This document shows, piece by piece, positions 1-3,910 of a DNA stretch of 42,774 nucleotides. How positions within the stretch are numbered: the stretch's first letter is position 1; each line of letters opens with the position of its first letter. The position numbers and the translations under genes were made by a program. The DNA is from Kiritimatiellia bacterium. GTDB taxonomy: Bacteria; Verrucomicrobiota; Kiritimatiellia; SLAD01. The DNA is taken from NCBI GenBank assembly GCA_007126515.1, contig SLBD01000099.1, positions 1 through 42,774 of the forward strand, written 5' to 3'. The notes beneath the pieces were generated by a model. That model saw only the letters and a list, made by a program, of their open reading frames with translations. It had not been told where the DNA came from and searched no databases.

Positions 1-20
1 CAAGGACAGGAATGTCCTTG
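1..20. repeat. Hairpin element CAAGGACA-GGAA-TGTCCTTG
   Basis: Perfect 8-bp inverted arms (1-8 / 13-20) around a GGAA loop; its right part is repeated at 130-150. Confidence 0.75.
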
Positions 21-53
21 CTCCGGGTTTTGGATATTTTGCGCTCATATTGA

Positions 54-81
54 GGTCCCACACTTCGGAAAGTGTGGGACC
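54..81. repeat. Hairpin element GGTCCCACACTT-CGGA-AAGTGTGGGACC
   Basis: Perfect 12-bp inverted arms (54-65 / 70-81) with a 4-nt loop. Confidence 0.85.
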
Positions 82-124
82 TTGGGGTTTTGGGCGACAT
101 GGGGATTCCTAGTCCTGTCAGCTG

Positions 125-150
125 CAAATACAGGAATGTCCTTGCTCCGG
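125..150. repeat. Degenerate copy of the first hairpin plus 21-nt direct repeat ACAGGAATGTCCTTGCTCCGG
   Basis: 130-150 is identical to 6-26; left arm CAAATACA versus CAAGGACA. Confidence 0.75.
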
Positions 151-159
151 CGACTGGGA

Positions 160-181
160 ACATGGGCATTCCTGCCCATGT
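160..181. repeat. Hairpin element ACATGGGCA-TTCC-TGCCCATGT
   Basis: Perfect 9-bp inverted arms (160-168 / 173-181), 4-nt loop; core is the reverse complement of CAGGAATG. Confidence 0.8.
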
Positions 182-404: not shown

Positions 405-635
405 ATGATGAAAACAATGCCAATTACTGATTTTAAATCTCATGCACTGAAGGTACTCAGCCACATCGCTACACATAAGGAAAACGTGGTCGTGACTAAA
501 CGAGGTAAGCCATTAGCGGTCGTAGTGCCCTACAATGAGCCAGAACCGAGCGCCGGACGGCTAGCTGAAACACTTGTTTTCGAAAAAGACATTATCAAAC
601 CATTCGGTGATACGATGTGGGATGCTTGCAAATGA
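405..635 (+). CDS. Type II antitoxin, Phd/YefM family
   Basis: Protein MMKTMPITDFKSHALKVLSHIATHKENVVVTKRGKPLAVVVPY... has the Phd/YefM pattern (ITKRGKPVAVLVP-like); ATG at 405 chosen over the ORF-track start at 72; overlaps toxin start (ATGA). Confidence 0.8.
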   Translation: MMKTMPITDFKSHALKVLSHIATHKENVVVTKRGKPLAVVVPYNEPEPSAGRLAETLVFEKDIIKPFGDTMWDACK

Positions 636-1030
636 AGCTGTTGCTCGATACCCATGTGTGGATCTGGTGGAATATGGAACCAAAGAAATTGTCGCGACGA
701 GCGATGGCGGCGATAGAAGCAGTACAGGATTATTCTGAAGTGCTACTTTCTGCCATTTCGCCCTGGGAGTTTTGCAAATTAATTGAGAAACAACGCATCG
801 GCATATCCTGTGAGCCGCAGGAATGGATAACGGAAGCCTTGCATATGCCCAAACTCCGTCTCGTTCCCTTGACACCAACAATTGCCTACCGATCAACGTC
901 CTTGCCGCAACCGTTTCATGGAGATCCCGCCGATCAAATCATCGTGGCGACTGCCCGGGAAGAAAATGCCACAATAATCTCCAAAGATCAGCTGATCCGA
1001 GACTATCCTCACGTCCGCACAATTTGGTAG
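632..1030 (+). CDS. Type II toxin, PIN-domain ribonuclease (VapC-like)
   Basis: MKLLLDTHVWIWW...SAISPWEFCKL...GDPADQIIVATAREENATIISKD: PIN acidic residues in the expected order; overlaps antitoxin stop. Confidence 0.88.
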   Translation: MKLLLDTHVWIWWNMEPKKLSRRAMAAIEAVQDYSEVLLSAISPWEFCKLIEKQRIGISCEPQEWITEALHMPKLRLVPLTPTIAYRSTSLPQPFHGDPADQIIVATAREENATIISKDQLIRDYPHVRTIW

Positions 1031-1073: not shown

Positions 1074-1214
1074 TTTTCCATTGAGTGGAAAATCAGCTCC
1101 AAAAACTTCCATTGAGTGGAAAATCAGCCCGCAAATCTTCCATTGAATGGAAAAATCGCTCAAAAAGTTTCCATTGAGTGGAAAAAAGCGGTTTTTTCTT
1201 TCCAATGAGTGGAA
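1074..1214. repeat. Tandem array of five TTCCA-N5-TGGAA palindromes, exact 31-bp period
   Basis: 15-bp cores start at 1076, 1107, 1138, 1169, 1200 (all intervals 31 bp): TTCCATTGAGTGGAA x3, TTCCATTGAATGGAA, TTCCAATGAGTGGAA. Confidence 0.93.
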
Positions 1215-1288: not shown

Positions 1289-3910
1289 ATGCAAATGGAT
1301 CGATTGACCATCAAGTCGCAGGAAGTGTTGCATCGGGCGCAGCGTTTGGCCACGGAGCGGCATCATGCGGAAGTGGATCTGGAGCATGTTTTGATTGCGC
1401 TACTGGAGCAGGAGGAAGGTGTTGTCCGCCCTCTCTTGGCCCGTTCTGGAGTCAAACAAGATGCGTTGCGTAATCGTGTGGAGGAGTTGCTGTCGAAGAA
1501 ACCTGCCGCACAGGGGGCCGCTGCGGAGCGCTACCTGTCTCGCGCCCTCCGAACCGTCCTGGATCGCGCTTTTGAGCTGGCCTCGGACATGAAAGACGAG
1601 TACGTCAGCACCGAGCATCTGTTGCTGGCTATTCTCGAGCAAAAAGATACTCAAGTCTCCCACATTGCTGAAGAATTGGGACTCACCTCCGCTGCCGTGC
1701 TGCAAGCGTTGCAGAGCGTCCGCGGCAGCCATCGCGTCACCGATCCGTCTCCCGAGGATAAGTATGAAACGCTAGAGAAGTATGGACGTGATCTGACGGC
1801 AGCTGCACGCCAAGGAAAACTGGATCCAGTGATCGGTCGGGATGCAGAAATTCGCCGGGTCATCCAAGTCCTATCCCGCCGAACCAAAAACAATCCGGTG
1901 TTAATCGGTGAACCGGGGGTCGGGAAAACAGCCATCGCCGAAGGATTAGCCCAGCGTATCGTGGCGGGTGATGTACCGGAAACATTGAAAGAAAAGCGCG
2001 TGGTTTCGTTGGATTTGGGCTCCATGGTGGCAGGCTCGAAGTACCGCGGCGAATTTGAGGATCGATTCAAGGCATTTCTGAAAGAAGTGACTGCGTCCGG
2101 TGGCCAAATCATCCTTTTTGTGGACGAGTTGCATACCTTGGTCGGAGCGGGTGGCGCAGAAGGATCGATGGATGCCTCCAATATGATCAAGCCGCCATTG
2201 GCCCGTGGAGAACTGCGCTGCGTGGGGGCGACAACTTTAGATGAATACCGGAAATATATTGAGAAAGATGCGGCACTGGAGCGACGTTTCCAACCGGTGA
2301 TTGTCTCGGAGCCGACGGTGGAGGACACAATTGCGATCCTGCGGGGATTGCGGGAACGGTACGAAGTTCACCACGGGGTGCGAATTCAGGATGCGGCCTT
2401 GGTAGCAGCGGCAGTGCTTTCTGACCGCTACATTAGCGACCGCTTTCTCCCCGACAAGGCGATTGATTTGGTCGACGAGGCGACCAGCCGGTTGCGCATC
2501 GAAATTGATAGTATGCCAACGGAAATCGATGCTGTGGAGCGTCGCATCATGCAATTGGAAATCGAGCGTGAGGCCTTACGCAAAGAGAAGGATGCCGAAT
2601 CCAAACAACGGCTGACCAAGCTCGAAGCCGAGTTGCAGGAGCTGCAATCGGAAAGCGCAGCCATGAAAATGCATTGGCAGCGGGAAAAAGAACTGATCCA
2701 TGAAATCCAATCGCTCACCAGTTCGCTTGATTTGTTGCGGACACGCGAAGAAGAAGCCAAACGCCAGAACGAATTGGAGCGAGCGGCCGAGATCATGTAT
2801 GACCTGATTCCGAAGACGGAAAAGCAAATTGAAACGGCGAAACAAACACTTAGTGAATTTCAGCAAGATCAGAAAATGCTGAAAGAAGAAGTGGATGCGG
2901 AGGATATTGCGGCTGTTGTGTCCTCATGGACACATATTCCCATCAGTCGATTGCTGGAAGGCGAAAAGGACAAGCTCTTGCATATGGAAGATCGCCTGCA
3001 GAAGCGCGTGATCGGCCAGCGGGAAGCTGTCGAAGCTGTGTCCAATGCCGTGCGACGGGCCCGGTCCGGCTTGCAGGATCCGAATCGACCGATCGGCTCG
3101 TTCATCTTTATGGGTCCAACGGGTGTCGGTAAGACCGAATTGGCTCGGGCCTTGGCAGAATTCTTGTTCGACGATGAACATGCAATGATTCGTATCGACA
3201 TGTCTGAGTTCATGGAAAAACACACCGTCAGTCGCCTGATCGGCGCACCGCCGGGCTACGTGGGCTATGACGAGGGTGGCTACCTAACGGAACATGTGCG
3301 ACGCAAGCCCTATTCCGTCTTGCTCTTCGATGAGATTGAAAAGGCCCATCCCGATGTCTTCAATGTTTTGTTGCAGATTCTCGATGACGGCCGGCTTACA
3401 GATGGTCAAGGACGGACAGTGAATTTCACCAACACGTTGGTGATCATGACCTCCAATATCGGCGGGCATCTGATTCTGGCCACTTTGGATCAACATCCGG
3501 ACATCCATCCCGGCGATCTCGCCTATGAGGAAATGGAAACAAAAGTCCATGAGCTGCTCCGTCGTGAATTCCGGCCCGAGTTTTTGAATCGAATTGATGA
3601 AACCATCATTTTCCACAGTTTGAATCAGGAGCATATTCGCGACATTGTGAGCGTACAATTGGCAGCGATGCAAAACCATCTACGCGACAAACGGATCACC
3701 TTGGAACTCACGGAAGCGGCCACCGACTTGCTGGCAAAGCAAGGATATGACCCATCGTTTGGGGCACGACCGCTGAAGCGCCTGTTACAACGGAAAGTCA
3801 TTAATGAACTGGCCACCGCACTGCTCGAGGGCCGAGTGCAAGAAGGCGATACTGTTCGATTTGATGTGCATCCAGACACTCTGGATGAACTGCAGCTGGT
3901 TGGCGACTAA
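1289..3910 (+). CDS. clpB: ATP-dependent chaperone ClpB
   Basis: Clp N-domain, two AAA+ modules ([16 protein letters not shown]), coiled-coil middle domain; start [12 protein letters not shown] with AAAAGGAG upstream. Confidence 0.95.

Follow-up and report, generated by a model that had tools for sequence, protein, structure and literature searches.

A helically phased array of TTCCA-N5-TGGAA palindromes upstream of clpB belongs to a family of such arrays in the Kiritimatiellia

The window analyzed here is a stretch of 42,774 nt from a Kiritimatiellia metagenome-assembled genome (MAG; 2.47 Mb in 244 contigs), hereafter the source genome. Near its start, a Phd/YefM antitoxin gene and a PIN toxin gene overlap by four bases, and the pair lies directly upstream of an array of five exact TTCCA-N5-TGGAA cores, which is followed by clpB (Table 1). 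The label "vapC" used for the toxin gene in a preliminary description of this DNA is right in the sense of a PIN toxin, given the PIN domain and the adjoining antitoxin gene. The cores repeat with a period of exactly 31 bp over four intervals, and the chance expectation for exact cores in the 42.8-kb window is ≈0.04. Exact matching reproduces the core positions and the 31/31/31/31 spacing reported before, and the center variants, the drift of the linkers and the 74 nt separating the last core (end, 1214) from the clpB ATG (1289) are likewise as first given. The ATG is preceded by a ribosome-binding site, AAAAGGAG. A second small repeat or hairpin family occupies window positions 1 to 180, where CAGGAATGTCCTTGCTCCGG is present twice and CATGGGCATTCCTGCCCATG is palindromic, and a hairpin, GTCCCACACTTCGGAAAGTGTGGGAC, is found at ≈55 to 80.

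Table 1. Features of the array and its neighboring genes in window coordinates.
Feature	Position	Strand	Basis
Phd/YefM antitoxin gene, upstream partner of PIN toxin gene	405-635		Pfam
PIN-domain (VapC-type) toxin gene, end 45 bp 5' of array	632..1030	+	Pfam PF01850
Core 1, TTCCATTGAGTGGAA	1076..1090	+	Exact match
16-bp linker 1, AT edges, GC middle	1091..1106	+	Sequence, linker comparison
Core 2, TTCCATTGAGTGGAA	1107..1121	+	Exact match
16-bp linker 2	1122..1137	+	Sequence, linker comparison
Core 3, TTCCATTGAATGGAA	1138..1152	+	Exact match
16-bp linker 3, near genome-wide internal-linker consensus AAACGGGCCAAAAAGT	1153..1168	+	Linker comparison
Core 4, TTCCATTGAGTGGAA	1169..1183	+	Exact match
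16-bp last linker with T-tract	1184..1199	+	Linker comparison
Core 5, TTCCAATGAGTGGAA	1200..1214	+	Exact match
clpB, 873 aa, first gene 3' of array	1289..3910	+	Pfam Clp_N, AAA_2, ClpB_D2-small

The array beside clpB is one of ≈30 in its genome and a member of a class-wide Kiritimatiellia family. A search of the source genome finds 141 exact cores, nearly all of which fall in ≈32 arrays of two to seven cores each, and a reversed-pattern control over the whole genome gives 0 matches. All of these arrays are strictly intergenic, and single cores are few, close to the number expected by chance. Neighboring cores in the retrieved source-genome loci are 31 bp apart in 85 of 93 cases, with the other distances at 29 to 32 bp and one at 62 bp, and the asymmetric centers are co-oriented within 31 of 32 arrays. 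Linker logos reveal AT-rich sequence beside the cores and a GC-rich mid-linker; on the outer side of the arrays this AT-richness is gone after two bases. T-tracts are found in 14 of 27 last linkers versus 8 of 58 internal ones. Similarity among linkers of separate arrays exceeds the prediction for independent columns, which indicates that unit copying between loci contributes to the family. Two contigs of genome G000, C131 and C142 (loci L167 and L170), both end in one array with identical linkers; assembly thus breaks at arrays, and the array count is probably too low.

Core pairs are found in 22 of the 38 genomes searched first (the source genome and relatives) and, in a sample of the phylum, in 22 of 47 genomes of the class, which harbor 2 to 747 pairs each. 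Outside the class, 1 of 98 genomes has core pairs, in this case a single pair. The presence of the motif is patchy, even inside single genera. Named GTDB matches derive mostly from Kiritimatiellae, "Lentisphaerae" or Verrucomicrobia MAGs, and the class of the motif is therefore taken as Kiritimatiellia, with a few record names suggesting other classes. This recurrence across the source genome and its relatives excludes a unique recent duplication beside clpB, which the preliminary description had named as an outcome that would speak against a binding array. A text search of the literature within reach, which left out most subscription papers, returned no description of the core strings or of palindromic or intergenic repeats in Kiritimatiellia.

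The distances between neighboring cores cluster at 20 to 22, 30 to 32, 41 to 43, 52 to 53, 62 to 64, 73 to 74 and 83 to 84 bp, which correspond to whole helical turns; in 112 GTDB loci they are 20 to 22, 30 to 32, 41 to 42, 52 or 62 to 66 bp, with one at 17 bp. Over all loci, many of which were picked by a three-turn pattern, 99% of 717 distinct neighbor distances deviate by no more than 1.6 bp from a multiple of 10.5 bp, and outside the 29- to 33-bp class 95% of 81 distances are near such a multiple versus 30% expected. Because of this selection, we took an unselected sample from G106, which belongs to another family of the class, comprising sixty 20-kb windows (L424–L483, 1.2 Mb) spaced along a single-contig chromosome of 3.88 Mb. 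This sample contains 293 cores where ≈4 would be expected; enrichment is limited to the N5 spacer (other spacers, 0 to 5), and other arms of similar composition are found 0 to 2 times. The G106 cores are mostly single dispersed sites, 197 (two thirds) in called genes and 96 outside, and extrapolate to ≈950 cores per chromosome. Neighbor distances ≤130 bp follow a 10.45-bp period (R = 0.84, n = 40, p ≈ 5e-13); the phasing reaches 83 to 84 bp, or eight turns, and also holds for pairs within one gene (R = 0.94, n = 20).

Whole-turn spacing combined with unrelated linkers is characteristic of proteins that interact along a single face of the DNA. The phasing in the unselected sample, including that inside genes, is strong evidence that the cores would be bound by protein on the same face, rather than act as RNA. 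The ordered same-face array first proposed on the basis of the clpB locus thus gains support, since the distances are quantized at whole turns throughout the class and not random. A DNA-uptake or other sequence-recognition signal (an uptake sequence or a modification site) with no architectural role would be compatible with the dispersed G106 copies, many of them in genes, but we consider it extremely improbable, as in the source genome the motif is nearly confined to intergenic arrays. Uptake signals are usually nonpalindromic and not phased in arrays, unlike the palindromic and phased motif described here. Two-turn spacing is seen as well: the pheS cores of G017 are 21, 21, 21 and 21 bp apart, counting two one-mismatch sites, and in L383 and L384 (G115 and G129), L114, L106, L072 and L045 the outermost intervals are 22 bp (two turns), with 30 to 31 bp inside. 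In these two-turn-ended arrays, the core beside the short A/T-only linker often has an ATGGT center, not ATGAT.

The placement of 172 arrays relative to genes, as defined by our own hexamer-based calls and not by curated annotation, follows the free intergenic space, with 30 convergent, 52 divergent and 90 tandem gaps versus 32, 54 and 86 expected (P = 0.82). Over these 172 arrays there is no preference for promoters or terminators and none of the upstream bias anticipated in the preliminary description; in tandem gaps, arrays lie slightly closer to the stop of the upstream gene. Arrays are oriented either way relative to their adjacent genes, with no evident bias. Serial RNA hairpins, also allowed for at the outset, here considered as terminators or mRNA stabilizers, are disfavored to the point of being highly improbable by this two-way orientation, sense or antisense to the neighbors, and by convergent regions not being favored. 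The arms could pair, and the clpB-side array folds with lower energy than shuffles (z = -4.1), but the minimum-energy RNA fold pairs core with core, as expected of any palindrome array, an Rfam search of the array gives zero families above threshold, and spacings quantized at two, three and four turns are a property of duplex DNA.

Another reading is that of a classical regulon, with the arrays as transcription-factor operators for adjacent genes including clpB. The strictly intergenic arrays of the source genus, the plausible upstream-activating position of the clpB array, a pheS upstream array conserved across families, and the amino acid and nucleotide biosynthesis genes among those flanking arrays all favor such operators. 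We nevertheless regard a regulon as unlikely: free-space placement, with tandem arrays nearer the upstream stop, and the lack of any array before clpB in G001 and G003 of the same genus argue against a general role as promoter operators, and two thirds of the G106 cores lie inside genes. The same two genomes speak against a clpB-specific operator, which leaves clpB regulation as the purpose of the array, suggested originally, unsupported. Eleven motif-bearing genomes from several families have cores upstream of pheS, and no genome without core pairs does; among 116 start-side neighbors of arrays, pheS recurs seven times, and no helix-turn-helix family is among the commonest families. No regulator gene is seen in the pheS operon. 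In G000 and G002, pheT does not follow pheS (unlike in G005, G007 and G024), and the pheS upstream array is still kept.

In an array common to the sister species G002 and G003, the two sequences differ at 1 of 90 core positions, 0 of 60 arm positions and 16 of 80 linker positions (P = 3e-5), which bears out the earlier impression of conserved cores and drifting linkers. The source-genome center TTGAR occurs in none of the G002 and G003 core pairs, which have an AYGAT center instead, and zero pairs carry the source-genome center among the 79 and 78 of the same-genus genomes. In the dnaJ–rsmE gap, an array is present in both G000 and G003 with the center of every copy switched, and the center types with T/C versus A/G at position 6 are found in separate members of at least three families. 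Such a concerted change is expected where one protein reads all sites, and the switch between species of one genus looks as if the centers were tracking the specificity of a protein. G000, G002 and G003 have ≈30 arrays each and share only five positions pairwise. Few shared positions and alike linkers indicate that arrays come and go, partly by unit copying, and with most positions turning over within the genus, any given array is dispensable. This turnover, the shared ancestry of linkers at separate loci and the patchy distribution even within genera are features of a selfish or mobile (REP- or MITE-like) repeat spread by copying with no host function. We consider such a repeat improbable, as the whole-turn spacing holds despite nonhomologous linkers, also in genes and out to eight turns, the arms are invariant where linkers diverge, and there are neither conserved termini beyond the cores nor a GTAG/CGTC tag.

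We consider it probable that the arrays are binding ladders of one dimeric, cooperating protein that bends DNA and has a chiefly architectural or global role, with clpB as just one neighbor among many. The motif itself, its phasing, distribution and conservation and the absence of promoter bias are shown by the data, whereas binding, wrapping and the role are inferred. One dimer would occupy each 15-bp palindrome, and whole-turn spacing would place the dimers on one face, where they could contact one another and bend or wrap the DNA. The linkers, AT-rich at the edges by the core and GC-rich in the middle ≈1.5 turns away, would fit bending. Because the sites are spread regardless of promoters and gene direction, their main role is likely chromosome architecture or global control, in the manner of a nucleoid-associated Lrp-like protein, with possible local effects at loci such as pheS. 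The family thus points to an undescribed chromosome-organizing or global DNA-binding protein, not to a private clpB switch. It is quite possible, if short of probable, that this reflects class-specific chromatin, in which an unrecognized nucleoid protein has hundreds of turn-locked sites per genome, and specificity and sites co-evolve such that the codes of related species differ.

Among known systems, the Fis upstream activating sites of Escherichia coli (rrnB P1) have a 15-bp core and several one-face sites ≈31 and 41 bp apart, and resemble the arrays in core length and one-face spacing. The Fis core has G/C ends and an AT center, whereas the Kiritimatiellia core has TTCCA/TGGAA arms, a center that often contains GC, and no promoter bias; lacking the promoter-upstream position and G/C core ends, the arrays are not Fis sites of this kind. 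SlmA, Noc and parS sites are also palindromes scattered over the chromosome, from which a bound dimer spreads or clusters, but they have other sequences and are not known to form phased arrays, and relative to nucleoid sites of this type the origin-proximal trend of the G106 cores is weak and not significant (Spearman -0.21, P = 0.10). The CIRCE/HrcA operator, TTAGCACTC-N9-GAGTGCTAA, is not present in the array as read directly, in agreement with the preliminary description. CRISPR arrays consist of 24- to 48-bp repeats with unique spacers, versus a 15- to 17-bp repeat and 16-bp linkers with a shared consensus here. REP/BIME elements of the GTAG/CGTC families are short, clustered intergenic palindromes that occur in Verrucomicrobia (PMC3733652). 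The Kiritimatiellia cores are likewise many, short, clustered and intergenic, but differ from REP/BIME in having fixed whole-turn spacing, no head/tail dimers and no GTAG/CGTC tag; flank logos reveal only T/A beside the core.

The closest likeness in site layout is to Lrp-family operators, which are regularly spaced 15-bp semipalindromes with 15- to 17-bp spacers at two or three turns, where wrapping of DNA is possible (PMC10201364, PMC2995911). Lrp/AsnC (feast-famine) arrays, such as those of BarR and Ss-LrpB in Sulfolobales, share the 15-bp (semi)palindromes, the 5-5-5 layout and the two- or three-turn one-face spacing with the Kiritimatiellia arrays. Known Lrp arrays have degenerate sites and are found at a small number of promoters, either of the regulator's own gene or of its targets, in contrast to the hundreds of invariant-arm sites here, which have no promoter bias and a species-specific center. 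Almost all genomes of the class have a single full-length Lrp/AsnC protein, a relative of FL11/PH1519; the source-genome copy has 159 aa, and tentatively this single protein is the best candidate binder. It is encoded in every motif-bearing genome examined and is present in motif-free genomes as well, and no cores lie near lrp genes, which speaks against Lrp autoregulation. Recognition-helix columns 27, 32, 35 and 36 differ between center types in at least two families, and the same-type G002 varies equally; covariation with the core center at residues 27 and 32 is thus suggestive, not decisive. For these reasons, we liken the working of the arrays to that of an Lrp ladder but stop short of classifying them as one, Lrp being here only the candidate binder.

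A genome-wide phased site set offers a direct handle on chromosome organization and global regulation in a poorly studied class, with a site grammar (arms, center, spacing and linker shape) that is readable from sequence, naturally variable between species, and predictive. The concerted center switch within a genus amounts to a natural experiment in which a DNA-binding protein would co-evolve with hundreds of sites. Finally, 26 stretches among 2.9 million viral contigs (IMG/VR) carry core pairs, many of them phased, and are perhaps from phages or prophages of the class; L401 and L402 have phased cores, with spacings of 31, 31, 22, 31 and 31 bp in L402.
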